DNA of 64,000 nt, from the NCBI RefSeq assembly GCF_031181555.1, contig NZ_JAPSKQ010000007.1, forward strand, positions 1 to 64,000, given 5' to 3'. This DNA is from Streptomyces sp. (GTDB lineage Bacteria > Actinomycetota > Actinomycetes > Streptomycetales > Streptomycetaceae). Position 1 is the stretch's first letter; each line of letters starts with the position of its first letter. The notes under the pieces are model-generated. The model was not told the DNA's origin. It did no database searches and was given only the letters and a program-made list of their open reading frames with translations. Shown piece by piece: positions 6,820 through 44,377 of the stretch. Position numbers and translations under genes: made by a program.

Positions 6820-7239
6820 ATGCCCATTCAGCAGTCAGACGTCCTGTACACCGCCGTCGCCACCGCCGAGAACGGCCGCGACGGACGCGTGGCCACCGAC
6901 GACGGCACGCTCGACCTGGTCGTCAACCCGCCCAAGGAGATGGGCGGCAGCGGCACCGGCACCAACCCGGAGCAGCTGTTCGCCGCCGGTTACAGCGCCT
7001 GCTTCCAGGGCGCCCTCGGCGTGGTCGCCCGCCAGGAGGGCGCCGACGTCTCCGGCTCGACGGTCACCGCCAAGGTCGGCCTCGGCAAGAACGAGGACGG
7101 CTTCGGCATCATCGTCGAGATCGCGGCGGACATCCCGAACGTGGACGCCGACACCGCGCGCTCGCTCGTCGAGAAGGCCCACCAGGTGTGCCCGTACTCG
7201 AAGGCGACCCGCGGCAACATCACCGTGACGCTGGCCTGA
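6820..7239 (+). CDS. ohr: OsmC/Ohr-family organic hydroperoxide resistance protein
   Basis: A 139-aa homodimeric thiol peroxidase of the Ohr type, detoxifying organic hydroperoxides in the cytoplasm. The two redox cysteines are in place: Cys61 (GYSACFQGAL) and Cys124 (HQVCPYSKATRGN). Arg20 and Glu51, expected in the active-site network, are also present. GAGGAGG lies 10 bases before the ATG. A weak promoter candidate (TTCACT at 6730, TAGCTT at 6753, 17-base spacer) lies in the 100-base gap after the oxidoreductase gene, so it may be transcribed alone or by read-through. The gene ends at a strong bidirectional terminator. Confidence 0.9.
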   Translation: MPIQQSDVLYTAVATAENGRDGRVATDDGTLDLVVNPPKEMGGSGTGTNPEQLFAAGYSACFQGALGVVARQEGADVSGSTVTAKVGLGKNEDGFGIIVEIAADIPNVDADTARSLVEKAHQVCPYSKATRGNITVTLA

Positions 7240-7258
7240 CACGGTCGTTGCGTACGGT

Positions 7259-7293
7259 GGGGGCCGCACCCTTGGACGTGGGGTGCGGCCCCC
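7259..7293. terminator. Bidirectional terminator between convergent genes
   Basis: A perfect 13-bp GC stem (7259-7271 with 7281-7293) with a 9-base loop lies between the Ohr gene and the convergent hypothetical gene. Confidence 0.8.
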
Positions 7294-7317
7294 GTCCGTG
7301 GGTGCGCCCGGACGTCC

Positions 7318-7923
7318 TCAGCCGCCCCAGAGGTCCAGGAGGTCACTCAGGTCCAGTCGGCTCAGGAAGCGCCCGGGCCAGGAGCAGAGCGCGCCGCCGA
7401 AGGACAGGTTCCGCGTGTAGACGCCCTCCAGCAGGATCGCGAGACCGAGGTCCAGGGCGTCCGCCTCCCCCTGCGAGACACCGGAAACGGTCTGCGGCCA
7501 CCGCCACTGCGACCGGGTCGTCGTCACGACGGCTCCCTCGCGCCGCAGCTCGTGCCTGAGCCTGCCGCCCAGCACCCGGTACCGGTAGGAGCGTCCGGCG
7601 ACCTCGATGTGCAGGGCGCGGCCTTGCTGCGTCACCGCCAGGTGGCGGCGGCGCAGCCGCGCCGTCCGTCCGTCGGCGGTGAGGGTCGCCCTGGCCATGC
7701 GCGGGAGGTTGCGAAAGCCGATGCCGCGGAAGGACACCGGCGGGACCGCCTGGCCCGTCACCCGGGCGGTCAGCTTGTCCCGGCCGCGATCCTCCGCCAC
7801 GGGGCACACCAGCTCGACCGGCCCGAGGCCGGGCAGCGTCCCGGTCCAGGTGTGCGTGGCCCGTTTGAACAGCCGTCCGCGAACGGAAGCCGTACGCGTG
7901 AGACGGAACCGGACAGCGGTCAT
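7318..7923 (-). CDS. Conserved hypothetical protein, beta-rich
   Basis: A 201-aa protein not assigned to any family. It is rich in Arg and short beta-type segments, has no signal peptide or membrane helix, and ends in a short hydrophobic, aromatic-containing region (LEGVYTRNLSFGGALCSWPG near 165-185). The ATG has GGGGGAAG three bases upstream. It is convergent with the Ohr gene and divergent from the EI24 gene. Coding character (third-position GC) supports it as real; its function cannot be proposed. Confidence 0.7.
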   Translation of the reverse strand: MTAVRFRLTRTASVRGRLFKRATHTWTGTLPGLGPVELVCPVAEDRGRDKLTARVTGQAVPPVSFRGIGFRNLPRMARATLTADGRTARLRRRHLAVTQQGRALHIEVAGRSYRYRVLGGRLRHELRREGAVVTTTRSQWRWPQTVSGVSQGEADALDLGLAILLEGVYTRNLSFGGALCSWPGRFLSRLDLSDLLDLWGG

Positions 7924-7988
7924 GTGCTTCCCCCGTTGATCGATGCGGGGGTGAGGCTACCTGGCGGTGCCCCGATACAGTCTTCCCC

Positions 7989-8783
7989 ATGCGCGATCTT
8001 GGGGCGGGTTTCCGGTATCTCCTGAAGGGCCAGCGGTGGGTGGCCCGGCACGGCAAGCAGTTCGGGTTCGGGCTGCTGCCGGGGCTGATCACCCTCGTGC
8101 TGTACGCGGCGGCGCTCGTCGCGCTGGCGCTGTGGGGGGAGGACTTCGTCGCCTGGGCGACGCCGTTCGCCGACGACTGGTCCAGCCCCTGGCCCGGACT
8201 GTTCCGCGGGTTCCTCACCGTCGTCCTGTTCGCGCTCGGACTGCTGCTGTCCGTGCTCACCTTCACCGCGGTGACGCTGCTCGTCGGGGATCCCTTCTAC
8301 GAGAGCCTCTCCGAGAAGGTCGACCGGGACGTGTCCCCCGACGGCACCGCGCCCGAGTCGGACCTGCCGCTGTGGCGGGAGCTGTGGATCTCCGGCCGGG
8401 ACAGCCTCCGGATCGTCGTGCGGGCCCTCGTCTGGGCCGTGCTGCTCTTCGCGCTCGGTTTCGTCCCGGTCCTCGGGCAGACCGCCGTACCGGTGATCGG
8501 CTTCTTCGTCACCGGGTTCTTCCTCACCGAGGAACTCACCGCCGTCGCGCTCCAGCGCCGCGGGGTCCGGCTGCGCGAGCGGCTCCGCCTGCTGCGGTCC
8601 CGCAAGACCCTCGTCTGGGGCTTCGGCACGCCCCTGGCGCTGGCCTTCCTCGTCCCGTTCGTCGCGGTGTTCCTGATGCCGGGCGCGGTCGCCGGTGCCA
8701 CCCTCATGGCGCGCGAGCTGCTCGGTGAGGAGACCGCCGGGGACGGTGCCGAGGAGTCCGAGGAGGAGGGCGTCACGTCATGA
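7989..8783 (+). CDS. EI24/CysZ-like integral membrane protein
   Basis: A 264-aa multi-span membrane protein of the EI24 domain family; CysZ, a sulfate transporter, is one characterised member. Hydrophobic segments lie at about 26-48, 73-95, 137-160 and 220-240, with the family-like GLLPGLITLVLY near the N-terminus. The acidic C-terminus overlaps the following lysE-family gene by four bases (ATGA), so the two form an operon. A TACAGT hexamer lies exactly seven bases before the ATG and no ribosome binding site is visible, suggesting a leaderless mRNA. The transported substrate, if any, is unknown. Confidence 0.8.
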   Translation: MRDLGAGFRYLLKGQRWVARHGKQFGFGLLPGLITLVLYAAALVALALWGEDFVAWATPFADDWSSPWPGLFRGFLTVVLFALGLLLSVLTFTAVTLLVGDPFYESLSEKVDRDVSPDGTAPESDLPLWRELWISGRDSLRIVVRALVWAVLLFALGFVPVLGQTAVPVIGFFVTGFFLTEELTAVALQRRGVRLRERLRLLRSRKTLVWGFGTPLALAFLVPFVAVFLMPGAVAGATLMARELLGEETAGDGAEESEEEGVTS

Positions 8784-31909: not shown

Positions 31910-32368
31910 ATGGCGATCCAGGTCGGCGACCAGGCCCCCGACTTCGAACTCAGGGACAACCACGGTGCCACCGTGAAGTTGTCCGACTTCCGGGGACGGA
32001 AGAACGTGGTGGTGCTCTTCTACCCGTTCGCCTTCACCGGCGTGTGCACCGGCGAGCTGTGCGAGGTCCGCGACAACCTGCCGCAGTTCTCCGACCGCGA
32101 CACCCAGGTGCTCGCCGTCTCCAACGACTCCATTCACACCCTGCGCGTCTTCGCCGAGCAGGAGGGCCTGGAGTACCCGCTGCTCAGCGACTTCTGGCCG
32201 CACGGCAACGTCTCGCGCGCGTACGGCGTCTTCGACGAGGACAAGGGGTGCGCCGTGCGCGGGACCTTCATCATCGACAAGGAGGGGGTCGTGCGCTGGA
32301 CCGTCGTCAACGGTCTGCCGGACGCCCGTGACCTGAGCGAGTACGTGAAGGCGCTCGACACCCTGTGA
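31910..32368 (+). CDS. Peroxiredoxin, AhpE-like (AhpC/TSA family)
   Basis: A 152-aa thiol peroxidase. Peroxidatic Cys46 is in [14 protein letters not shown], and a second Cys51 four residues on could act as an intrahelical resolving residue. The last codons and stop lie in an 18-bp tandem duplication. The start is uncertain: ATG 31910 gives the usual N-terminus ([12 protein letters not shown]), while ATG 31898 adds four residues; neither has an ideal ribosome binding site. It probably removes hydroperoxides or peroxynitrite in the cytoplasm, as AhpE does in Mycobacterium. Confidence 0.9.
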
Positions 32369-32499: not shown

Positions 32500-33075
32500 G
32501 TGGGAGTCAGCCTCAGCAAGGGCGGCAACGTATCGCTGACCAAGGAGGCGCCGGGCCTGACCGCGGTCATCGTCGGACTGGGGTGGGACGTCCGCACCAC
32601 GACCGGCACCGACTTCGACCTGGACGCCAGCGCGCTGCTGCTGAACAACTCGGGCAAGGTCGCCAGCGACCAGCACTTCATCTTCTTCAACAACCTCAAG
32701 AGCCCGGACGGCTCGGTGGAGCACACCGGTGACAACCTCACCGGTGAGGGCGAGGGCGACGACGAGCAGATCAAGGTCAACCTCGCGACCGTCCCGGCCG
32801 ACGTCGAGAAGATCGTCTTCCCGGTCTCGATCTACGACGCCGAGAACCGCCAGCAGTCCTTCGGCCAGGTGCGCAACGCGTTCATCCGCGTCGTCAACCA
32901 GGACGGCGGCGCCGAGATCGCGCGCTACGACCTCTCGGAGGACGCGTCCACCGAGACCGCCATGGTCTTCGGTGAGCTGTACCGGCACGGCGCGGAGTGG
33001 AAGTTCCGCGCCATCGGCCAGGGCTACGCCTCCGGCCTGCGCGGCATCGCGCAGGACTTCGGCGTGAACGTCTGA
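32500..33075 (+). CDS. terD: TerD-family calcium-binding stress protein (copy 1)
   Basis: A 191-aa TerD protein. The N-terminal [13 protein letters not shown] and the aspartate-rich calcium sites ([11 protein letters not shown] near 43-53 and [12 protein letters not shown] near 79-90) are intact. The C-terminal [24 protein letters not shown] is the family end. TerD proteins bind calcium and act with TerC in resistance to tellurite and other envelope stress. The GTG has GGGAGG upstream. It shares about two thirds of its residues with the next terD copy, so they are tandem paralogues. Confidence 0.95.
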
Positions 33076-33130
33076 GACGGTCACGTCCCGGGCGGGCGCG
33101 CCCGAGCCCGGTCGTCCGGCACGACCGCAC

Positions 33131-33167
33131 CGTCCGGCGCCGCACGGTTTACGTGCGGCGCCGGACG
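33131..33167 (+). terminator. Hairpin between the two terD copies
   Basis: A perfect 16-bp stem (33131-33146 with 33152-33167) with a GTTTA loop lies 55 bases after the first terD. It could terminate or attenuate so that copy 1 is made in excess. Confidence 0.75.
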
Positions 33168-33211
33168 CGCAGGACCACCTGAGAAACTTCACCCGGGGAG
33201 GGACCAGCATC

Positions 33212-33787
33212 ATGGGCGTCACGCTCGCCAAGGGAGGCAACGTCTCCCTGTCCAAGGCCGCACCGAACCTCACGCAGGTGATGATCGGGCTCGGCTGGGA
33301 CGCGCGCTCCACCACCGGAGCCCCCTTCGACCTCGACGCCAGCGCACTGATGTGCAGCGGCGGCCGGGTCATGGGCGACGAATGGTTCGTCTTCTACAAC
33401 CAGCTCAAGAGTCCGGACGGCTCGGTGGAGCACACCGGTGACAACCTCACCGGCGAGGGCGACGGCGACGACGAGTCCCTGCTGGTCGACCTCTCCAAGG
33501 TGCCGGCCCAGTGCGACAAGATCATCTTTCCGGTCTCCATCCACATGGCCGACGAGCGCGGCCAGACCTTCGGCCAGGTCAGCAACGCCTTCATCCGCGT
33601 GGTCAACCAGGCGGACGGCCAGGAACTCGCCCGGTACGACCTGTCGGAGGACGCCTCCACCGAAACCGCGATGATCTTCGGCGAGCTCTACCGTTACCAG
33701 GGTGAGTGGAAGTTCCGTGCGGTGGGACAGGGGTACGCGTCGGGGCTGCGAGGCATCGCTCTAGACTTCGGAGTCAACGTTTCGTAA
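33212..33787 (+). CDS. terD: TerD-family calcium-binding stress protein (copy 2)
   Basis: A 191-aa paralogue of the preceding gene with the same calcium-site pattern (FDLDASALM near 44-52 and [12 protein letters not shown] near 79-90) and the same C-terminal motif ending FGVNVS. The ATG has GGGGAGGGA nine bases upstream. It is 50 bases upstream of the TerC-like gene with no terminator between, so terD2 and the terC-like gene are probably co-transcribed. Confidence 0.95.
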
Positions 33788-33837
33788 AGCCGATCACGGC
33801 AGCGGGGGAGACCCGTACACACACCATGGGGTAGCCA

Positions 33838-34977
33838 GTGGTTCTGAAAACCTTCGGCTGGTCGTTCGCGGTCACCGCGCTCGGCCTGGTCGCAGCGGTC
33901 CTTTTCGGGGGGTGGACCGCCTTCGGTATCGTGGCGATTCTCTCCATCCTCGAGATCTCGCTGTCCTTCGACAACGCGGTGGTCAACGCCGGCATCCTGA
34001 AGAAGATGAATGCCTTCTGGCAGAAGATCTTCCTCACCATCGGCATTCTGATCGCCGTCTTCGGCATGCGGCTGGTCTTCCCCGTCGTCATCGTCGCCGT
34101 CAGCGCCCAGCTCGGTCCGATCGAGGCCGTCGACCTCGCGCTCAGCGACAAGGACCGTTACCAGGAACTCGTCACCGACGCCCACCCGGCGATCGCCGCG
34201 TTCGGTGGCATGTTCCTGCTGATGATCTTCCTCGACTTCATCTTCGAGGACCGGGAGATCAAGTGGCTGGGCTGGCTGGAGCGCCCGCTGGCCAAGCTCG
34301 GCAAGGTCGACATGCTGTCGGTGTGCATCGCGCTGATCGTGCTGATGATCTCCGCCATGGCGTTCGCGACGCACGCCCACCAGCACGGCGGGGCGCACGT
34401 CGACAAGTCGTCCACGGTCCTGCTCTCCGGCGTCGCCGGTCTGATCACCTACCTGATCGTGGGCGGCCTGTCCGGCTTCTTCGAGGACAAGCTCGAAGAG
34501 GAGGAGGAGCGCGAGCACGAGGAGGAGGAGAAGGCCGCGCGCGAGGGCAAGCCCCGCTCGGCGGTCGCCCTGGCCGGCAAGGCCGCGTTCTTCATGTTCC
34601 TCTACCTCGAGGTCCTGGACGCGTCCTTCTCCTTCGACGGCGTGATCGGTGCCTTCGCCATCACCAACGACATCGTCCTGATGGCCCTGGGTCTGGGCAT
34701 CGGCGCCATGTACGTCCGTTCGCTCACGGTCTACCTGGTCCGCCAGGGCACCCTGGACGAGTACGTCTACCTCGAGCACGGCGCGCACTACGCCATCGGC
34801 GCCCTGGCGATGATCCTGCTCGTCACCATCCGGTACGAGATCCACGAGCTCATCACCGGCTCCATCGGCGTCATCCTGATCGGCGCCTCCTTCTGGTCCT
34901 CCGTCCGCCGCAACAGGAGGCTGGCGGCGGCCGAGGGAAGCGCGGGCACGAAGACCGAGGTCTCCTCCGGGGTGTGA
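33838..34977 (+). CDS. TerC-superfamily integral membrane protein (DUF475 type)
   Basis: A 379-aa membrane protein with about nine helices. TerC signature segments are SLSFDNAVVNAGIL near 40-53 and SFSFDGVIGAF near 262-272, each with the helix-embedded Asp thought to bind metal. A large charged cytoplasmic loop rich in Glu/Arg occupies about 217-240. It belongs to the DUF475 branch rather than classical TerC. TerC-family relatives export manganese or partner with TerD at the membrane. The GTG start follows terD2 by 50 bases. Confidence 0.9.
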   Translation: MVLKTFGWSFAVTALGLVAAVLFGGWTAFGIVAILSILEISLSFDNAVVNAGILKKMNAFWQKIFLTIGILIAVFGMRLVFPVVIVAVSAQLGPIEAVDLALSDKDRYQELVTDAHPAIAAFGGMFLLMIFLDFIFEDREIKWLGWLERPLAKLGKVDMLSVCIALIVLMISAMAFATHAHQHGGAHVDKSSTVLLSGVAGLITYLIVGGLSGFFEDKLEEEEEREHEEEEKAAREGKPRSAVALAGKAAFFMFLYLEVLDASFSFDGVIGAFAITNDIVLMALGLGIGAMYVRSLTVYLVRQGTLDEYVYLEHGAHYAIGALAMILLVTIRYEIHELITGSIGVILIGASFWSSVRRNRRLAAAEGSAGTKTEVSSGV

Positions 34978-35123
34978 CAGCCCTCCGGGTGAGGAACGCT
35001 CTCGACGGGGCGGCCACCGAGGACCACTCCTCGGGGCCGCCCCGTCGGCCGTCCGGGACCGGTGGGTACCGGACGGCCGGAACGGGGGTGTGGCGGGGTT
35101 CGACGACTGGACTTGGGGCGGGA

Positions 35124-35861
35124 ATGGGTTTCCTGGACGGACTGCGGCGCGGACGCGAGAGTGCCTTCGACTCGGGCAACGCGGCCACCAACGCCATCGA
35201 GCTGACCAAGCGGCACGCGCAGGTGTCCCTGACCAAGCAGGGTGCGGCCACCGGCCATCTGCGGATCAACCTGAGCTGGCGGATGCGCACCTCCGACCTG
35301 GGCGGCTCCCAGCGCGAGAGCCTGCTGCGCCACCCCTTCAAGGCGCTCAAGCCGCCGGAGGTCGTCGGCCACAGCCAGAGCATGGTCAACGTGGACCTCG
35401 ACCTCGGCTGCCTGTACGAGCTCCAGGACGGCACCAAGGGCGTCGTCCAGCCCCTCGGCGGCTTCCTCGGCGACGTCAACGCGCCGCCGTACGTCAAGCT
35501 CAGCGGCGACGACCGGTTCGGCTCGGGCTCCGGGGAGACGATCTACGTCAACCTGGACCACCGCGAGAACATCAAACGCCTGCTGGTCTTCGCCTACATC
35601 TACGACCAGACACCCGCGTTCGACCGCACCCAGGCCATGGTCACGCTCTACCCCGGCAACGGCCCGCGGATCGAGATCAGCCTCGACGAACGCCATCCGC
35701 AGGCCCGCTCCTGCGCGGTGGTGATGATCGAGAACGTCAAGAACGAGATCGTCGTCCGCCGCGAGGTGAAGTTCGTGTACGGGTTCCAGGCGGAGCTGGA
35801 CCGGCTGTACGGGTGGGGGCTGCAGTGGGGCAGGGGCTACAAGACGAAGGCCGGGCGGTGA
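35124..35861 (+). CDS. TerD-domain protein, divergent (TerA-like)
   Basis: A 245-aa protein with an N-terminal extension (MGFLDGLRRGRE) and a divergent TerD fold. VDLDLGCLYEL near 90-100 matches the first calcium site, and SGDDRFGSGSGE near 124-135 replaces the second. The segment RLLVFAYIYDQTPAFDRTQAMVTLY is typical of larger TerD/TerA members. The ATG at 35124 lacks a good Shine-Dalgarno, and an upstream in-frame GTG near 35088 is possible. It follows the TerC-like gene by 146 bases and probably belongs to the same stress module. Confidence 0.85.
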   Translation: MGFLDGLRRGRESAFDSGNAATNAIELTKRHAQVSLTKQGAATGHLRINLSWRMRTSDLGGSQRESLLRHPFKALKPPEVVGHSQSMVNVDLDLGCLYELQDGTKGVVQPLGGFLGDVNAPPYVKLSGDDRFGSGSGETIYVNLDHRENIKRLLVFAYIYDQTPAFDRTQAMVTLYPGNGPRIEISLDERHPQARSCAVVMIENVKNEIVVRREVKFVYGFQAELDRLYGWGLQWGRGYKTKAGR

Positions 35862-35924
35862 GGGGCCGCGGCCGCCCGCCGGGCCGGACGCCGGACGGGA
35901 CGGACGCCGGACGGGACGGACCCG

Positions 35925-36875
35925 CTACCGCCCGATGAACTGCGGCCCCTGCGGCGGGAGCCGGAAGTCGGGGTCCGGGGCGGAGGCGGCCGGCGGCGGG
36001 AAGCCGTACCCGGACGGCGCGCCCGCCGCGGCGGCCGTGGCCGGCGCCTGCGGGTAGCCGTAGGCGGGCTGACCGGCCGGGTGCGGATAGCCGTAGGCCG
36101 GCCGGGCCGCCGCGGGCTGCTGCGGCGGGTAGCCGTACGCGGGCTGTGCGGGCACCCCCGCCGGCTGCTCGGGCGGCAGGGGCCGGGACACCTCGGGGGC
36201 CGGCGGCACGACCGGGGCGTGCGGCTGGGTCGGCGCCTCCGGAGGGGTCCGGTCCGGAGCCTGGACCTGCGTCTGCGCCGTTGCGGGCGCCTGCTGGGTG
36301 GTGTCGGCGGCCTCGGGCTCCTGCGCGGCCTCCGACTCGTCCACCGAGATGCCGAAGTCGGTCGCCAGGCCCTTCAGCCCGTTCGAATAGCCCTCGCCGA
36401 GCGCCCGGAACTTCCAGCCGTCCCCGCGCCGGTACAGCTCACCGCAGATCAGCGCGGTCTCCTGGCCCGTCTCCGGCGTGATGTCGAAGTGGGCCAGCGC
36501 CTCCCCGTCGGCCGCCTGCGCGTCGTACAGCAGAATGCGCAGCGCCCGTACGCGGTCGAACGTGGCGCCGTCCGCCGACGCGACCAGGAGGATCCGGCCC
36601 ACGCCGGACTCGACACCGGCGAGATCTGTCTGGATCGTGTCGGTCAGGCCCTCGGCGACGCGTTTCTTGCCGAGCCGCCACACCTTCCCGGAGGGGTGCC
36701 GGGGCTGGTTGTAGAAGACGAAGTCCTCGTCGGAGCGCACACGATCGTCGGGGCCGAGGAGCAGCGCGGAGGCGTCGACGTCCGGCACCCCCTGCCCGGG
36801 CGACCAGCGCAGCACGGCACGTACCGTGGTGGCTTCCAGAGGGATGTTCGACCCCTTCAGCATCGCGTGCGTCAT
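35925..36875 (-). CDS. TerD-family protein with Pro/Tyr-rich repeat tail
   Basis: A 316-aa protein. Residues 1-180 are a TerD domain (VDASALLL near 33-40, [24 protein letters not shown] near 154-177). Residues 190-316 are a disordered Pro/Ala/Gln tail with several PAYGYP repeats and one SGYGFP. The second calcium loop found in the other TerD copies (DNLTGEG-x-GDDE) is replaced by a [10 protein letters not shown] sequence, so metal binding is probably altered. It is divergent from the lyase gene of the biosynthetic module. The tail could mediate condensate formation or partner binding; that is inference. Confidence 0.9.
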
Positions 36876-36963
36876 ACGGTCATCCTGCCTTCTCCGTCCT
36901 GGTCACGACAATGCGGGGGGTGTGGGGGCGACACAGCAGGGTTACCTGACGTTCACGGTCCGC

Positions 36964-36991
36964 GGGAACCTCCGACACCGATCTCTACGTA
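36964..36991 (+). promoter_or_regulatory. ECF-sigma-like promoter candidate of the Ter biosynthetic module
   Basis: GGGAAC (36964-36969), 18 bases, then CGTA (36988-36991) mirrors the GGGAAC-N18-CGTT site before the first terD. The leader to the ATG at 37053 would be about 55 bases. Confidence 0.4.
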
Positions 36992-37052
36992 CTATTACCG
37001 GCCACCTTCCTCCTACCTTCCACAGGCCACCCAGAAGCCACAGGGGAGTTCA

Positions 37053-38219
37053 ATGCGTCATTTCGGGCACGTCGCCCCTGAGGTGCGGAAACGTCTTTTC
37101 TACCGGGAGCCCGGCGTGTTCACGCAGGACTCCCCGGCCCGGCTGCTCTCCGCGGCCCTCGGCGCCACCCTCTACAGCCCCGCGACCCGGCCCCGGCTCG
37201 CCGACGACGTCGTCAAGCAGGGCGGACGCGGCGTGGTCTCGATGGTGCTGTGCCTGGAGGACTCCATCGACGACGCGGACGTGGGCGCCGGTGAGGAGAA
37301 CCTCGTACGCCAGTTCACGGACCTGGCCGGACGGCCCGGAGCGGATCTGCCGCTGCTGTTCATACGGGTCCGCGTCCCCGAGCAGATCCCCGACCTGGTC
37401 CGGCGCCTCGGCCCCGCCGTCCGGCTGCTGTCCGGATTCGTCCTGCCGAAGTTCACCGCCGAACGCGGCCTGCCCTTCCTGGAGGCGCTGACCACCGCCG
37501 AGGCCGGCAGCGGCCACCGGCTCTTCGCCATGCCGGTGCTGGAGTCGCCCGACCTGCTCTACCGCGAGTCGCGCGTGGCGACCCTGGAGGGCATCTACCG
37601 CACGGTCGACAAATTCCGTGACCGGGTCCTCGCGCTGCGCCTCGGCGTGACCGACTTCTGCTCCTCCTACGGGCTGCGCAGGGGCCCCGACATGACGGCG
37701 TACGACATCCAGGTCGTCGCCTCGGTGATCGCCGACGTGGTGAACATGCTGGGCCGGGCCGACGGCACCGGATTCACCGTGACCGGGCCGGTCTGGGAGT
37801 ACTTCCGGGTCCAGGAGCGCATGTTCAAGCCGCTGCTGCGGCAGAGCCCCTTCCTGGAGGTGCAGGCCGTGGCGCTGCGCGAGACGCTGATCGAGCACGC
37901 CATGGACGGTCTGCTGCGCGAGATCTCCCTCGACCAGGCCAACGGCCTGCTGGGCAAGACCTGCATCCATCCCTCCCACGTGCTGCCGGTGCACGCGCTG
38001 TCCGTCGTCAGCCACGAGGAGTTCAGCGACGCCCAGGACATCCTGCGGCCGGAACGCGGCGGTGGGGGTGTACTGAGGTCGGCCTACACCAACAAGATGA
38101 ACGAGGTGAAGCCGCACCGCGCCTGGGCCGAGCGGATCCTGCTGCGTGCCGAGGTCTTCGGCGTGGCGAACGAGGACATCGGCTTCGTGGAACTGCTCGC
38201 GGCGGGCCTGACGGAGTGA
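37053..38219 (+). CDS. CitE/HpcH-HpaI-like lyase of the Ter biosynthetic module
   Basis: A 388-aa TIM-barrel protein of the HpcH/HpaI aldolase-citrate lyase beta family. Barrel landmarks are VVSMVLCLEDSIDDADV near 60-76 (metal and carboxylate binding), PLLFIRVR near 98-105 and a LRLGVTDFCSSYGLRRGPD segment near 196-214. The ATG at 37053 has GGGGAG five bases upstream. It starts a three-gene operon with the phosphoribosyltransferase fusion and a HAD phosphatase. This set matches the Ter-linked module proposed from comparative genomics to make a nucleoside-like compound; the lyase substrate is unknown. Confidence 0.88.
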   Translation: MRHFGHVAPEVRKRLFYREPGVFTQDSPARLLSAALGATLYSPATRPRLADDVVKQGGRGVVSMVLCLEDSIDDADVGAGEENLVRQFTDLAGRPGADLPLLFIRVRVPEQIPDLVRRLGPAVRLLSGFVLPKFTAERGLPFLEALTTAEAGSGHRLFAMPVLESPDLLYRESRVATLEGIYRTVDKFRDRVLALRLGVTDFCSSYGLRRGPDMTAYDIQVVASVIADVVNMLGRADGTGFTVTGPVWEYFRVQERMFKPLLRQSPFLEVQAVALRETLIEHAMDGLLREISLDQANGLLGKTCIHPSHVLPVHALSVVSHEEFSDAQDILRPERGGGGVLRSAYTNKMNEVKPHRAWAERILLRAEVFGVANEDIGFVELLAAGLTE

Positions 38220-38256
38220 CCACGACCGTACGAACCGGACCGACCGCAGGGAATCC

Positions 38257-40794
38257 ATGGAGAAGGCAGTGAACGAGGGGGAGCGGCGAACGGTGCGCCA
38301 CGGAGCGGCACGGACCGGCGGTGACGTCTGGTCCGGGAGCTGGGTCGCACAGCGGCTCGGGGTCGAGCTGGTCGGGGACGACCGGCTCACCGAGCTGCTG
38401 GGGCTGGCGCTGCGCCGCAACCCGAAGCGGGCGCACCTGCTGGTGTCCCACGTCCTCGGCAAGCACGTGCCCCAGTCGCCGTCCGTCGTGTACGGCCACG
38501 GCTTCGCGCTCGGTCGCCGGGTGCGCGAACTGCTGGGCGACGAGGCGGGCCGGGCGGTCGTCCTCGGGTACGCGGAGACCGCGACCGGCCTCGGCCACTC
38601 GGTCGCCGACGGCCTGGGCCTCGCCCCCTACCTGCACTCCACCCGCCGCCCGGTCCCCGGGGTCGCCGCCGCCGGCGGCTTCGAGGAGTCCCACTCCCAC
38701 GCGACCTCCCACCTGCTGCTCCCGGAGGACCCGGAGCTGCTGGCCGGGGACGGCCCGCTGGTCCTGGTCGACGACGAGTTCTCCACCGGGAACACGGTGC
38801 TGAACACCATCCGTGACCTGCACGCCCGCTATCCGCGACGCCGCTACGTCGTGGTCGCCCTGGTCGACGTGCGCTCGCCCGCCGACGCCGGCCGCCTGCA
38901 GGACTTCGCCCGTGGGATCGGCGCCCGCGTCGACCTGGTGACGACCGCCTCGGGCACGGTCCGGCTGCCGGAGGGCGTGCTGGAGAAGGGGCGGGAGCTG
39001 GTGGCCCGGCACGAGGCGGAGTCCGGTGCCGGTGCGGGGGCGGCCGAGTCCGCCGCCGCTGCCGCCGGGGCCGGGCGGATCACGCGGGTCGGGCTGGGGT
39101 GGCCCCGCGGGCTGCCCGACGGCGGACGGCACGGATTCACGCCCGCCCACCGCGCCCGCCTGGAGAGCGCCCTGCCCGCCATGGCCGCCCGGATCGCCGA
39201 GGCACTGCCCGACGGTGTCCGCCGGGTGCTCGTCCTCGGCTTCGAGGAGCTGATGTACGCGCCGCTCCGTCTCGCCCGTGAGCTGGAACTGGTGACCGGC
39301 ACCGAGGTGCGCTTCTCCACCACCACCCGCTCGCCCGTCCTCGCCGTGGACGACCCCGGCTACGCGATACGCACCCGGCTGGTCTTCCCCGCCCACGACG
39401 ACCCCGCCGACGGCCCCGGCGAGCGCTACGCCTACAACGTCGCCGGTGCCGGCTTCGACGCCGTCGTCGCCGTCGTCGACTCGGCCGCCGACACCCCCGC
39501 ACTGCACGCGCCCGGGGGCCTGCTCGCCCGGCTCGCCGCGCACACCCCTCAGGTCCTCCTCGCGGTCGTACCGTCGTACGCACCCGCCCCCTCGAACGCA
39601 CCGGTCGCACCGGACGCCCCCGAAAGGCCCGCCACCATGCTGCCCGAGCCCCTCAGAGGCCCCGCCTTCTCCTCGTACCCGCCCGAGGAGGTCGGCTGGC
39701 TGCTGCAGGACCTCTCGGACGTGACGCTGGAGGCGCCGACCGAGGAGCGCGAGGAGGCCATCCAGAGCGGCGGCGCCCACTACGCGGAGTCGCTGCCGGT
39801 GGAGTACCAGCCGAGCGAGCAGTACCAGGAGCTGTTCCGCGCGGCCCTGGACGCCTCGGCGGCCCGCCTCGCCCACGCGGTGGGCGTGGTCACCGAGACG
39901 GTGCTCACCGAACGGTCCCCCCGCCCGGTGCTCGTCTCCCTGGCCCGCGCGGGCACCCCCGTCGGCATCCTGATGCGCCGCTGGGCCCGGTACCGGCACG
40001 GCCTCGACCTCCCCCACTACGCCGTCTCCATCGTCCGCGGCCGGGGCATCGACACCAACGCGCTGCGCTGGCTGGCCGCCCACCACGACCCCCGGGACGT
40101 CGTCTTCGTCGACGGCTGGACCGGCAAGGGCGCCATCACCCGCGAACTCGCCCAGGCGGTCGCCGAGTTCGAGAAGGCCGAGGGCATCACCGGCTTCGAC
40201 CCGGAGATCGCGGTCCTGGCCGACCCCGGCTCCTGCGTCCGCACCTACGGCACCCGCGAGGACTACCTGATCCCCTCCGCCTGCCTCAACTCGACGGTCT
40301 CCGGACTGGTCTCGCGCACCGTGCTCCGCGCCGACCTGGTCGGCCCGCACGACTTCCACGGCGCCAAGTTCTACCGCGAACTCGCCGACGCGGACGTCTC
40401 CGTGGCCTTCCTGGACGCCGTCTCCGACCGCTTCCCGGAGGTCGCGGACGCGGCCTGCGCCCAGGCCAAGGAACTGCTCGCCACCGACCGCACCCCCACC
40501 TGGGAGGGCTGGGCCGCGGTCGAACGCATCAGCGAGGAGTACGGCATCCACGACGTGAACCTCGTCAAGCCCGGCGTCGGCGAGACCACCCGGGTGCTGC
40601 TGCGCCGCGTGCCCTGGAAGGTGCTGGCGCGGGCCGGAGCCGGCAGCGACCTCGACCACGTACGCCTCCTCGCCGAGCAGCGGGGCGTCCCCGTCGAGGA
40701 GGTCGCCGACCTGCCCTACACCTGCGTCGGACTGATCCACCCCCGGTTCACCCGGGGCGCGACCGGCGCCGACGGCAAGGCGGTGACGCTCTGA
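38257..40794 (+). CDS. Ter-module fusion: phosphoribosyltransferase-TRSP-StiP-PELOTA
   Basis: An 845-aa multidomain protein. Residues about 30-235 are an orotate-type phosphoribosyltransferase with the PRPP loop VDDEFSTGNT (171-180). Residues about 275-460 are the TRSP domain, showing its name motif TTRSP (356-360). Residues about 475-745 resemble the StiP domain (PRTase-like or cysteine-protease-like), with the conserved ACLNSTVSGL. The last 90 residues resemble the PELOTA-like RNA-binding domain. In many bacteria the PRTase-TRSP and StiP-PELOTA halves are separate genes, so this is a fusion. ATG 38257 was used; GTG 38269 with GGAGAAG upstream is an alternative. Its stop overlaps the HAD start (TGATG). 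Confidence 0.85.
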   Translation: MEKAVNEGERRTVRHGAARTGGDVWSGSWVAQRLGVELVGDDRLTELLGLALRRNPKRAHLLVSHVLGKHVPQSPSVVYGHGFALGRRVRELLGDEAGRAVVLGYAETATGLGHSVADGLGLAPYLHSTRRPVPGVAAAGGFEESHSHATSHLLLPEDPELLAGDGPLVLVDDEFSTGNTVLNTIRDLHARYPRRRYVVVALVDVRSPADAGRLQDFARGIGARVDLVTTASGTVRLPEGVLEKGRELVARHEAESGAGAGAAESAAAAAGAGRITRVGLGWPRGLPDGGRHGFTPAHRARLESALPAMAARIAEALPDGVRRVLVLGFEELMYAPLRLARELELVTGTEVRFSTTTRSPVLAVDDPGYAIRTRLVFPAHDDPADGPGERYAYNVAGAGFDAVVAVVDSAADTPALHAPGGLLARLAAHTPQVLLAVVPSYAPAPSNAPVAPDAPERPATMLPEPLRGPAFSSYPPEEVGWLLQDLSDVTLEAPTEEREEAIQSGGAHYAESLPVEYQPSEQYQELFRAALDASAARLAHAVGVVTETVLTERSPRPVLVSLARAGTPVGILMRRWARYRHGLDLPHYAVSIVRGRGIDTNALRWLAAHHDPRDVVFVDGWTGKGAITRELAQAVAEFEKAEGITGFDPEIAVLADPGSCVRTYGTREDYLIPSACLNSTVSGLVSRTVLRADLVGPHDFHGAKFYRELADADVSVAFLDAVSDRFPEVADAACAQAKELLATDRTPTWEGWAAVERISEEYGIHDVNLVKPGVGETTRVLLRRVPWKVLARAGAGSDLDHVRLLAEQRGVPVEEVADLPYTCVGLIHPRFTRGATGADGKAVTL

Positions 40795-41606
40795 TGCCCG
40801 TCCTCGTCGCCAGTGACCTCGACCGCACGCTCATCTACTCCGCCGCCGCCCTGGCCCTGACCATGCCGGACGCTCGGGCGCCCCGGCTGCTGTGCGTGGA
40901 GGTCCACGAGAGCAGACCCCTGTCCTACATGACGGAGACGGCGGCCGGACTCCTCACCGATCTCGGTGACACGGCCGTGTTCGTCCCCACGACGACCCGC
41001 ACCCGCAAGCAGTACCAGCGCATCAACCTCCCCGGCCCGGCGCCGACCTACGCGATCTGCGCCAACGGCGGCCACCTCCTGGTCGACGGCGTGTCCGACC
41101 GGGACTGGCACGCGCGGGTGCTCGCCCGCCTGGCCGACGAGTGCGCCCCGCTGTCCGAGGTGCAGGAGCATCTGCTGCGGACCGCCGACCCGGTCTGGGT
41201 GCGCAAGCACCGCGTCGCCGAGGACCTCTTCGCCTACCTCGTCGTCGAGCGGGAACTGCTGCGCGAGGAGTGGGTGAAGGAGCTCGCGGTGTGGGCGGAG
41301 AACCGCGGCTGGACGGTGTCCCTGCAGGGCCGCAAGATCTACGCTGTGCCGGGGCCCCTCACCAAGAGCGCGGCTATGCACGAGGTGGCCCGCCGCACCG
41401 GCGCCGACCTCACCCTCGCCGCCGGCGACTCCCTCCTGGACGCCGATCTGCTCCTCGCCGCGGACCAGGGCTGGCGCCCCGGCCACGGCGAACTGGCCGA
41501 CGCCGACTGGACGGCCCCCTCGATCAGGGCACTGCCCGAACGCGGCGTCCTGGCCGGCGAGCGGATCCTGCGCGAGTTCCTGCGGACGGTGCGCTCGGCC
41601 CACTGA
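40794..41606 (+). CDS. HAD-superfamily phosphatase of the Ter module
   Basis: A 270-aa HAD hydrolase. Motif I is SDLDRTLIYS with nucleophile Asp8 and acid Asp10. TTTRTRKQY near 66-74 covers motif II, Lys in PLTKSAAM near 190 gives motif III, and AAGDSLLDADLLLAAD near 204-219 gives motif IV. It is translationally coupled to the phosphoribosyltransferase fusion, suggesting that it dephosphorylates the ribosylated product. Confidence 0.9.
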   Translation: MPVLVASDLDRTLIYSAAALALTMPDARAPRLLCVEVHESRPLSYMTETAAGLLTDLGDTAVFVPTTTRTRKQYQRINLPGPAPTYAICANGGHLLVDGVSDRDWHARVLARLADECAPLSEVQEHLLRTADPVWVRKHRVAEDLFAYLVVERELLREEWVKELAVWAENRGWTVSLQGRKIYAVPGPLTKSAAMHEVARRTGADLTLAAGDSLLDADLLLAADQGWRPGHGELADADWTAPSIRALPERGVLAGERILREFLRTVRSAH

Positions 41607-41670: not shown

Positions 41671-42465
41671 TCAGGGACTCCGCCTCCGGTCGGTGAGCTC
41701 GTACGGGTCCGTGACGCGGAGCCGGCGGGTGGGGTGGTCCTCCTCGGAGAAGTCCGACGGCCGTGCCTCCTCCGGACGCGTCCCCTCCGTGTTCCCCCGC
41801 CCGTCGCGCCGCCGGCGCCCGGCCCCCGGCCGCCGCAGCCGCATGACCACGAACACCAGCACCGCCAGCGCGGCCGCACCGAGGACCACCTTCGAGTACG
41901 CCGAGACGACGGTCGTGACCCGCTCCCAGTTGTCGCCCAGGACATAGCCCGCCAGCACGAACGCGGTGTTCCAGATGGCGCTGCCCAGCGTGGTCAGACC
42001 GAGGAACACCGGCAGCCGCATGCGCTCCACACCGGCCGGCACCGATATGAGACTGCGGAAGATCGGGATCATCCGGCCGAAGAACACCGCCTTGGTCCCG
42101 TGCCGCAGGAACCAGGCCTCCGTCCGCTCGATGTCCGCGACCTTCACCAGCGGCAGCCGCCCCGCGATCGCCACCGTCCGGTCCCGGCCGAGCAGCGCAC
42201 CCACCCCGTACAGCGCGAGCGCGCCGATCACCGACCCCGCCGTCGTCCACAGCAGCACGGCGAGCAGACTCATCCGCCCGCTGCTCGCGGCGAACCCCGC
42301 CAGCGGCAGGATCACCTCGCTGGGCAGGGGTGGGAAGAGGTTCTCCAGCGCGATGGCGAGGCCGGCCCCAGGGGCGCCCATGGTGTCCATGAGGTCGTTG
42401 ACCCACTGCGGCCCGGCGCTCCCGTCCGCGGCCGCCGTGATCGTGTGCGCTGCGATGGCTGTCAT
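41671..42465 (-). CDS. DedA-family membrane protein
   Basis: A 264-aa DedA/VTT protein with about five membrane segments. Family motifs are ENLFPPLPSEVILPLAGF near 41-58 and FFGRMIPIFRSLISVPAGVERM near 118-139. A charged, probably disordered cytoplasmic tail occupies 215-264. DedA proteins flip undecaprenyl phosphate or other polar lipids. TAGCGT lies seven bases before the ATG at 42465, so the mRNA is probably leaderless. Confidence 0.9.
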   Translation of the reverse strand: MTAIAAHTITAAADGSAGPQWVNDLMDTMGAPGAGLAIALENLFPPLPSEVILPLAGFAASSGRMSLLAVLLWTTAGSVIGALALYGVGALLGRDRTVAIAGRLPLVKVADIERTEAWFLRHGTKAVFFGRMIPIFRSLISVPAGVERMRLPVFLGLTTLGSAIWNTAFVLAGYVLGDNWERVTTVVSAYSKVVLGAAALAVLVFVVMRLRRPGAGRRRRDGRGNTEGTRPEEARPSDFSEEDHPTRRLRVTDPYELTDRRRSP

Positions 42466-42545
42466 GCCGACCACGCTAGAAAACCGGAGCTGAAGGGACC
42501 CTGAGGAGAACCGCACGATGCGCTGTGGGCTTCCGCAGCCGGAAT

Positions 42546-42596: not shown

Positions 42597-43739
42597 ATGC
42601 GAGACACGGTGCGGCGCGTGGTGCGGTGTGCGGTGGGCCTGATGTGGGGCGCCGCCACCGCCGTCGTCGAGCTGCTCTGCGCAGTCCTGGCCGGTCTGCT
42701 CCTGCTGCCCGTCGCGGCCTGGCCGCACGGTCGTCGCGCCGTGCTCCGACCGGTCCTCGCGGGTGCGCGAGGACTGACGGAACTGGAGCGCGCCCGGCTG
42801 CGGATCTGGCTGAGGGCGCACACCTCTCCCGTCTACGAGGACACCCAGGCCCTGGCCTACCTCGCCTGCCGCTGGGCGCTGGGTGTCCTGGGCGCGGTGG
42901 TGATGCTCTCGGTGGCGATCGGCCTCGGGTACGGCACGTCCTGGACGTACCTCTGGCTGCTGGTCGACGACGTACGGAACACCACAGTGATCGTCTACAC
43001 GTCCCTCGGCGGACTCTTCCTGCTCTTCCTCGCCGTACAGGGGATAGTCGGCGTGGCCGAACTGGAGGGGAAGCTGGCCCTCCGGCTGCTCGGCCCCAGC
43101 CACCAGCACGCGCTGGAGCGGCGCATCGCCGAGCTGTCCGCGAGCCGCGCGGCCGTGGTCGACGCGGTGAACGACGAACGGCGCCGCATCGAGCGGGACC
43201 TGCACGACGGGGTGCAGCAACGCCTGGTCGCGCTCGGCATGCTGCTCGGCCGCGCCCTGCGCAGCGAGGACCCCGACCGCGCGGACCGGCTGCTGCGCCA
43301 GGCCCACGAGGAGAGCCGGCAGGCCCTGGACGACCTGCGCGAAGTGGCGTGGCGGATCTATCCCACCTCCCTGGACGAGGCGGGACTGCGGGCGGCGCTG
43401 GAGACGGTCGCCGAGCGGGCCTCCGTGCCGGTACGAGTGGAGTACGGGCTCACCGGGGAGCCCGGGCGGGCCGTGGCGACCGTCGCCTACTTCGTCGTCT
43501 GCGAGGCCGTCACCAACGCGGTGAAGCATGCGGCACCGACCCGGATAGTCGTCGCGGTCGGAGCGGAGAAGGGAGTGGTGCACGTGAGCGTGGAGGACGA
43601 CGGCCGGGGCGGGGCGAACGCGTCGGGCAGCGGGCTGTTCGGGCTGGCCCGGCGGGTCGCGGCCCTCGACGGACGCCTGGAGGTGCGCAGTCCGCCGGGC
43701 GGACCGACCCTGGTGACCGCGGAGCTGCCATGCGCGTGA
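42597..43739 (+). CDS. Sensor histidine kinase, NarL-type (HisKA_3)
   Basis: A 380-aa membrane kinase. N-terminal hydrophobic segments lie at about 13-43, 88-112 and 128-155. The dimerisation and phosphoacceptor motif is ERDLHDGVQQRL with His203. The ATPase domain has an AVTNAVKHA N-box near 305 and the Gly-rich GSGLFGLARRV loop near 345. TAGCCT lies seven bases before the ATG at 42597 (leaderless). It overlaps the response-regulator gene by ten bases. The signal is unknown. Confidence 0.92.
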   Translation: MRDTVRRVVRCAVGLMWGAATAVVELLCAVLAGLLLLPVAAWPHGRRAVLRPVLAGARGLTELERARLRIWLRAHTSPVYEDTQALAYLACRWALGVLGAVVMLSVAIGLGYGTSWTYLWLLVDDVRNTTVIVYTSLGGLFLLFLAVQGIVGVAELEGKLALRLLGPSHQHALERRIAELSASRAAVVDAVNDERRRIERDLHDGVQQRLVALGMLLGRALRSEDPDRADRLLRQAHEESRQALDDLREVAWRIYPTSLDEAGLRAALETVAERASVPVRVEYGLTGEPGRAVATVAYFVVCEAVTNAVKHAAPTRIVVAVGAEKGVVHVSVEDDGRGGANASGSGLFGLARRVAALDGRLEVRSPPGGPTLVTAELPCA

Positions 43740-44377
43740 TCCTGGCCGAGGACTCCACCCTGCTGAGAGAGGGCCTGGTGCGGCTGCTGGCGGAGGAGGG
43801 GCACGAGGTGCTCGCCGCCGTCGGCAACGCGGAACTGCTGCTGAAGGCCGTCGCCGAGGATCCGCCGGACGTGGTGGTCGCCGATGTGCGGATGCCGCCC
43901 ACCCACACCGACGAAGGGCTGCGCGCGGCCCTGGAGATCCGCCGTCGCCGGCCGGAGGTGGGGGTGCTGGTGCTCTCGCAGTACGTGGAGAAGCGGTACG
44001 CGACGGAGCTGCTGACCGGCGAGTCGGAAGGGGTCGGCTATCTGCTCAAGGACCGTGTCGTCCAGGTCGACGAGTTCCTGGACGCCCTGGAGCGGGTGGC
44101 CGGCGGACGCGCCGCCTTCGACCCGGAGGTCGTCCGGCAACTGCTCGGCCGCACGACCCACACCGACCCGCTCGCCCGCCTCACCGCACGGGAGCACGCG
44201 GTCCTGGCCGAGATGGCGCAGGGGCACACCAACGCGGCCATCGCGCGGCGGCTGCACATCTCGCAGAGCGCGGTGGAGAAGCACACCAACGCGATCTTCG
44301 ACAAGCTCGGGCTGGCAGGCGGAGGTGAGGGCTACTCCCGCAGAGTGCTGGCGGTGCTGCGCTACCTGGGGAGCTGA
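43730..44377 (+). CDS. Response regulator, NarL/LuxR family
   Basis: A 215-aa regulator. The receiver has Asp7/Asp8-type acidic residues (ILAEDS) and phosphoacceptor Asp52 (VVADVRMP). The C-terminal LuxR helix-turn-helix is LTAREHAVLAEMAQGHTNAAIARRL followed by SQSAVEKHTNAIFDKLGL. It is translationally coupled to the kinase, its evident partner. Likely targets are not visible; the adjacent genes do not share an obvious operator. Confidence 0.93.
   Translation: MRVILAEDSTLLREGLVRLLAEEGHEVLAAVGNAELLLKAVAEDPPDVVVADVRMPPTHTDEGLRAALEIRRRRPEVGVLVLSQYVEKRYATELLTGESEGVGYLLKDRVVQVDEFLDALERVAGGRAAFDPEVVRQLLGRTTHTDPLARLTAREHAVLAEMAQGHTNAAIARRLHISQSAVEKHTNAIFDKLGLAGGGEGYSRRVLAVLRYLGS

Follow-up and report, generated by a model that had tools for sequence, protein, structure and literature searches.

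What reaction would be carried out by biosynthetic enzymes encoded among TerD and TerC genes is a question raised by a Ter stress locus of Streptomyces sp. (assembly GCF_031181555.1), located in a 64,000-nucleotide stretch of contig NZ_JAPSKQ010000007.1, referred to here as the window, in whose positions all coordinates are given. The central gene of this locus (38257-40794, plus strand) encodes an 845-residue fusion of four domains, PRTase_2, TRSP, StiP and PELOTA_1, each scoring far over the cut-off of its Pfam family. Modules of this kind were reportedly proposed by Anantharaman, Iyer and Aravind in 2012 to produce a Ter-linked nucleoside-like metabolite, and we know of no product assigned to them since. 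The window locus shares with that module the TerD/TerC genes accompanied by PRTase_2-TRSP, StiP-PELOTA, a HAD protein and a CitE-like lyase, but joins both proteins that would use 5-phosphoribosyl pyrophosphate (PRPP) in one chain. A preliminary description of the locus had put it forward as a candidate for undescribed chemistry; the module as such was already in print, the 2012 proposal being cited in the extract of PMC7824862. With the outline of the module already known, what we propose as new, from a predicted structure, is that StiP may be read as a PRPP enzyme resembling the transferase CriT rather than as a protease.

The StiP domain comprises residues 472-722 of the fusion (39670-40422, plus strand; 357.6 bits). 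An AlphaFold model of StiP alone, with 56 relatives added, reached a predicted local distance difference test (pLDDT) score of 76.5 and a predicted template modelling (pTM) score of 0.83, whereas the StiP and TRSP regions could not be judged from a weak model of the whole protein (pLDDT 65.6), whose fold matches were dominated by PRTase_2. In VIA-align, the StiP model was matched best by 8a0c_A, the Haemophilus capsule polymerase Bcs3 (Z 12.6, root-mean-square deviation (rmsd) 4.0, 200 aligned residues, model residues 56-275 against chain residues 637-936), followed by 8a0m_D (Z 11.4) and then by phosphoribosyltransferase (PRTase) rows of the PyrR/HPRT kind (Z 9.2 to 7.5). Residues invariant in 16 aligned StiP sequences include RxGxPxG, S-(5)-GxD, VDGW-(3)-G, V-x-x-D, D669 and S686-R687, and 12 of the 21 invariant positions fall on four loops (31 of 277 residues) at the ends of parallel strands; the borders of these loops were set from DSSP after the alignment had been viewed, so that the p value of 7e-8 for the enrichment serves as a guide only. 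Invariant residues on PRPP-type loops point to a catalytic role or, failing that, to the binding of a ligand. On the strength of the model, StiP very probably has a PRTase-type fold, and the earlier count of two PRTase-like units on the chain is backed, for its second unit, by predicted fold and motifs.

According to the extract of PMC10299916, CriT corresponds to residues 599-1036 of Bcs3, with a catalytic domain that resembles PRTases and an 80-residue helical insert, HB-2, and catalyses the PRPP-dependent, O-linked transfer of ribofuranose-5-phosphate, after which CrpP, a HAD enzyme, strips the 5-phosphate. The same logic of PRPP transfer followed by a HAD step emerges from the enzymology of Cj1432, as given in the extract of PMC12096443. 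The window locus and the CriT-CrpP part of Bcs3 (PDB 8a0c) have in common a PRTase-like fold with flanking helices, a HAD partner and a multi-enzyme chain. They differ in that no capsule-type GT-B domain was found in the window fusion, the window HAD is a separate gene, and the fusion adds PELOTA and an APRT-like PRTase. CriT-like O-transfer by StiP is, judging from the model, a possibility that we place slightly short of an even chance. Among the matches listed from the open-licence literature, no paper linked StiP to ribosyl transfer in its title or the start of its abstract, and neither the analogy to CriT and its HAD nor the link to a solved plasmid HAD, described below, was present. A PRTase-like StiP is, however, not wholly unseen, because one phage copy carries the annotation “phosphoribosyl transferase”.

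The N half of the fusion carries the other PRPP-type unit. PRTase_2 (residues 47-233; 38395-38955, plus strand; 225 bits) has, in the whole-protein model, APRT as its best fold match (Z 12.9, 170 aligned residues, rmsd 3.0), and its PRPP motif, LVLVDDEFSTGNT, aligns as VDDE-x-(S/T)TG in fused and split forms and as VEDE-x-TSG in the most divergent copy; by fold and motif, this domain is a PRTase. TRSP (residues 288-422; 39118-39522, plus strand; 135.6 bits) can be aligned to the N-terminal half of PRTase_2, TTRSP standing opposite STRRP, with an hhalign score of 27.1, while the highest of 100 shuffles scored 19.7, which is suggestive of a third, degenerate PRTase, possibly a half-domain. A sequence search of the PDB with the 845-residue protein returned no relative. 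All four domains anticipated in the preliminary description were recovered by the profile search.

The fusion gene overlaps a HAD phosphatase gene (40794-41606, plus strand), the TGA stop of the former (40792-40794) and the ATG start of the latter (40794) sharing exactly one base in TGATG, as had been described. The HAD protein gave no Pfam match at E<=0.1, and relaxing the limit to E<=10 added just two, both weak and to unrelated families. Its motifs DxDxT, T, K and GDxxxD are invariant in 8 aligned sequences, its own included, and by itself it matches PDB 6cj0/6d3v at E 6.5e-10 (42 bits), so that it is confirmed at the sequence level as a HAD with intact motifs. In a ter cluster on a Pseudomonas aeruginosa plasmid (L026), the HAD encoded at 9025-9783 matches 6d3v/6cj0, titled “trehalose phosphatase”, with 528 bits over 251 residues. 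We take these entries to be the extrachromosomal trehalose-6-phosphate phosphatase protein of P. aeruginosa, which, given the 528-bit match, therefore appears to be a ter-cluster protein; in this sense, a HAD of the ter module seems already to have been solved structurally under another name. A P. aeruginosa “extrachromosomal” trehalose-6-phosphate phosphatase is reported in the extract of PMC6838324. The window HAD belongs to the same HAD lineage as the plasmid protein (PDB 6cj0, 6d3v, 6d3w), but is a distant member (42 bits) that follows StiP, whereas the plasmid HAD gene lies between the PRTase_2 and StiP genes.

On the other side of the fusion, at a spacing of 37 bases, lies the CitE-like C-C bond lyase (C-C_Bond_Lyase, PF15617, 399.5 bits; 37053-38219, plus strand), in which LED, R, PK, PxLE and GxxD positions, presumably the CitE-type active-site motifs, are invariant in 5 aligned sequences. 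The last domain of the fusion, PELOTA_1 (residues 749-828; 40501-40740, plus strand; 120.7 bits), resembles L7Ae with E 0.014, and its residues E776 and R779 are invariant in 16 aligned sequences; it is putatively RNA-binding-like, in line with what had been claimed for the fusion.

From these parts a scheme can be drawn in which PRTase_2 would use PRPP to attach ribose-5-phosphate to a base or aglycone, StiP, as a second PRPP enzyme of CriT type, would add ribose-5-phosphate to an acceptor hydroxyl, and the HAD would then take off the 5-phosphate, the part that CrpP plays for CriT. The CitE-like lyase may shape or supply the acceptor skeleton or aglycone, PELOTA may hold RNA or a nucleotide-like ligand, and the ribosylated nucleoside-like product might be sensed or handled by TerD/TerC. 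The fusion would thereby place both PRPP steps on one chain, with the translational overlap coupling the phosphatase. We tentatively regard the whole as a Ter stress locus whose biosynthetic module is driven by PRPP and may respond to envelope stress; the full sequence of two PRPP steps, dephosphorylation and release of a ribosylated nucleoside-like metabolite is somewhat less probable than CriT-like O-transfer alone. Reading StiP as a CriT-like enzyme shifts the reaction to be sought to two PRPP-dependent steps followed by dephosphorylation, which can be tested with purified proteins.

Several observations weigh against this proposal. The CriT-like fold match comes from one model and one aligner, residues 192-215 of the model are nearly all below a pLDDT of 50, and the PyrR rows (Z 9.2) lie little above background, because, according to the VIA notes, models without a clear match typically reach a best Z of 7 to 8. 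With the same model, Foldseek gave no match at E<=0.001, PyrR coming first at 2.3e-3 with pyridoxal phosphate (PLP) enzymes interleaved, and CriT was not among the 50 matches listed. Profile searches of the PDB yielded no PRTase, StiP with PELOTA retrieving essentially L7Ae-type domains and StiP alone nothing. The hhalign score of StiP against PRTase_2 lies within the shuffle range (4 of 100 shuffles reach it), and when StiP was compared with PRTases of its own genome, only L122 and L127 (24 columns) of the five rose above all 50 shuffles; these five are drawn from eight loci, three having been excluded for an open reading frame (ORF) without the expected motif pattern. Besides, StiP has no vicinal acidic pair of the kind found in PRTases, D619-G620-W621 (DG for DD) standing in 16 of 16 sequences; CriT likewise does without the vicinal DD motif, its D680 and E818 lying on separate loops (extract of PMC10299916). 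Finally, two of the 14 genomes that carry StiP in a phylum sample introduced below (G290 and G130) have no lyase or HAD beside StiP by phmmer at E<=1e-5, a threshold that a distant HAD could escape, while TerD and TerA-like genes are close to StiP in both.

The reading of StiP as a cysteine protease induced by stress, which the Pfam family name, RefSeq naming and plasmid annotations convey, is hardly credible: C660 and C676 are indeed nearly invariant inside Streptomyces, a point that also counts against our proposal, but no cysteine column is common to the 16 aligned StiPs, C660 reaching 9 of 16 and C676 7 of 16 at best, and none is conserved in the 57-row alignment once its two viral copies are counted. 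Together with the PRTase-like fold matches and the phage annotation mentioned above, this indicates that StiP is probably not a cysteine protease. That the module serves the stress metabolism of trehalose or another sugar phosphate is very improbable as well. Its attraction, and a further difficulty for the CriT analogy, is that the solved relative of the HAD takes its name from trehalose-6-phosphate; a Pfam scan of ten proteins in and around the locus showed no trehalose-phosphate synthase, however, and the pair of PRTases points to PRPP.

A more substantial rival, which we nevertheless find unlikely, holds that StiP-PELOTA is an RNA-binding regulator of PRTase fold that senses PRPP or the product, like PyrR, and that PRTase_2, lyase and HAD by themselves make an N-nucleoside. 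PyrR chains are indeed the best small-protein matches to StiP, with the highest Z below the Bcs3-type chains and the first place in Foldseek, PELOTA resembles L7Ae, and StiP is without the DD pair. StiP shares with PyrR/HPRT type I phosphoribosyltransferases the core fold and the PRPP-type loops, at Z of about 9 and below, and differs by DGW where these enzymes have the acidic pair, by extra helices and by the RNA-binding-like partner domain. The match to CriT is both stronger (Z 12.6) and longer (200 aligned residues), and the invariant residues of StiP occupy its PRPP-type loops, both of which speak against a purely regulatory role. Yeast Rit1 ribosylates the 2'-OH of initiator tRNA with ribose-5-phosphate from PRPP. 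By analogy, PELOTA might position a structured RNA on whose 2'-OH StiP places the ribose-5-phosphate of PRPP, the HAD then trimming it. The O-transfer fold predicted for StiP, the adjoining HAD gene and the L7Ae-like domain with its invariant E776 and R779 would suit such a reaction, and the presence of PELOTA would fit an RNA acceptor better than a small molecule, again to the detriment of the scheme that we prefer. We nonetheless consider RNA ribosylation quite improbable, since PRTase_2, the lyase and the ATP-grasp of two proteobacterial plasmid clusters resemble a small-molecule pathway, and the Asn that has a role in the L7Ae motif is kept in 2 of 11 StiPs and replaced in the other 9. Less probable again is its extension to a new type of RNA-based stress switch, present in nearly all Streptomyces, in which StiP-PELOTA would O-ribosylate structured cellular RNA under envelope or phage stress and the HAD would remove the 5-phosphate.

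Conservation of these genes was followed across the genus. StiP was found in 147 of 150 genomes of Streptomyces. Related loci were taken as the best 80 of 591, all titled Streptomyces and hence nearest relatives only, the nearest being 95% identical across StiP, and 62 of the 80 span at least 16,800 bases and were treated as having the full upstream flank. With phmmer matches counted as present at E<=1e-8, 60 of these 62 loci match all nine genes, which run in the order peroxiredoxin, TerD, TerD, DUF475, TerA-like, TerD (minus strand), lyase, fusion and HAD, and the other two are without a peroxiredoxin match only. This conservation is far above chance, and the locus is near-core in the sampled Streptomyces. 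The fusion is not peculiar to the genome of the window but typical of the genus, forming a single ORF in 73 of the 80 loci; five of the rest are truncated by contig ends and two (L034 and L078) are split, perhaps by a frameshift or sequencing fault. Across the StiP region, differences between the window and 54 Streptomyces sequences number 3463 at codon position 3, 1007 at position 1 and 852 at position 2, the final two (viral) rows of the alignment being excluded, and since they fall mostly at third positions, the StiP protein is therefore under constraint. The homologue set used comprised 41 of 44 sequences chosen for diversity.

TerD adjoins the module in all 62 full-flank Streptomyces loci, as well as in L024-L026, L107 and L112-L118 and, by annotation, in phage ME3; this linkage was checked in the loci named, while the 296-genome phylum sample was not searched for TerD. 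Co-conservation of the module with TerD, as well as the gene order compared across Streptomyces, accordingly agrees with the preliminary description, with one exception, a second StiP copy in one Streptomyces genome (G317; L119 7714-9024), in whose surroundings no Ter, lyase or HAD neighbours were detected within 16.8 kb. In the phylum sample of 296 genomes, the 14 in which StiP passes its cut-off are precisely the 14 in which PRTase_2 does, and they represent fewer than 14 independent events because the genomes are related; weak matches below the cut-offs occur in one further genome for StiP and in 52 further genomes for PRTase_2. A strong lyase match adjoins the module in 12 of the 14.

Both fused and split architectures occur outside the window. 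Other members of the class are fused in L018 and L020, and the halves are adjacent genes in L019. A Tsukamurella plasmid has the split halves in the order TerD, TerD, DUF475, hypothetical, lyase, PRTase, StiP, HAD-like and TerD, the same order as in the window. In the two proteobacterial plasmid clusters (L025 and L026), the halves are separate, an ATP-grasp gene is present and the HAD gene lies between those of PRTase_2 and StiP, L026 carrying a second HAD after the lyase; an Acinetobacter jumbo phage shows the same order of PRTase, HAD and StiP. ATP-grasp may be a defining partner of the Ter-linked module. In contrast to these plasmid clusters, neither an ATP-grasp nor a second HAD was found by Pfam among the window locus proteins scanned. 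Elsewhere in the same genome, the ATPgrasp_Ter family has three matches, the best on contig C163 at 6880-8043 (L111), and the family also occurs in 13 of 14 control genomes. This gene was set aside as a candidate for the missing step, the family being broad and its two scanned neighbours being an IclR regulator and a metallophosphoesterase.

Among plasmids, StiP turned up in no fewer than 2,564 records of the collection searched, mostly of Klebsiella, Escherichia, Enterobacter and Salmonella, counting records in which a single place covers at least 80% of a StiP query; its chemistry would therefore matter well beyond Streptomyces. In four scans of viral contigs, StiP was confined to two records, and a phage collection had it on three records, two of which are one phage.

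The Ter genes themselves occupy the upstream part of the locus. Two TerD genes on the plus strand (32500-33075, PF02342 298.7 bits; 33212-33787, 276.9 bits) are followed by a DUF475/TerC-family membrane protein (33838-34977, plus strand; PF04332 466.1 bits, PF03741 76.9 bits) and a TerA-like divergent TerD protein (35124-35861, plus strand). A third TerD, with a proline-rich tail (35925-36875, minus strand; 152.2 bits), is divergent from the lyase, so that its upstream region is common with that of the plus-strand set of lyase, fusion and HAD. By translation and Pfam, the three TerD genes, the TerC/DUF475 gene, the lyase and the 845-residue fusion lie where they had been placed. The assignment of the divergent TerD/TerA-like gene stands by its matches to ter-cluster proteins, while its Pfam score for PF02342 (17.5 bits) is under the cut-off of 25.3. 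These matches are to proteins of 387-396 residues encoded in ter clusters of plasmid and viral origin (L025, L026 and L107; 117 to 152 bits), which adjoin a shorter TerD gene and are annotated “TerD family” in L025 and L026. Other collections added little: PADLOC gave no match for seven proteins of the locus, NCBIfam placed only the DUF475 protein over its cut-off, with peroxiredoxin, DedA and lyase matches under theirs, and for the four proteins compared with PHROGs the sole match was between the TerA-like protein and a family of unknown function.

Upstream of the Ter genes, a sigma-E-like promoter element lies at 32204-32232 (plus strand), inside the peroxiredoxin ORF and 268 bp before the first TerD start, and differs by one base from the sco2368 site listed for Streptomyces coelicolor. 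In the extract of PMC6767563, sco2368 is listed with a sigma-E site, and its product is said, citing earlier proteomics, to rise under vancomycin. Presumably sco2368 corresponds to the first TerD gene, and the element suggests envelope-stress control of the TerD end of the locus; its conservation is no independent evidence, because it lies inside a coding sequence. The ter operon of Klebsiella has been tied to envelope stability (extract of PMC9933665). An entry for SCO2362 in a table of a GlnR mutant was set aside, as SCO2362 is a putative orthologue of the fusion by gene order.

Downstream of the HAD gene follow a DedA/VTT protein and then a histidine kinase with a response-regulator-like ORF (41671-42516 and 42597-44377), the histidine kinase being present in a minority of the related loci only.

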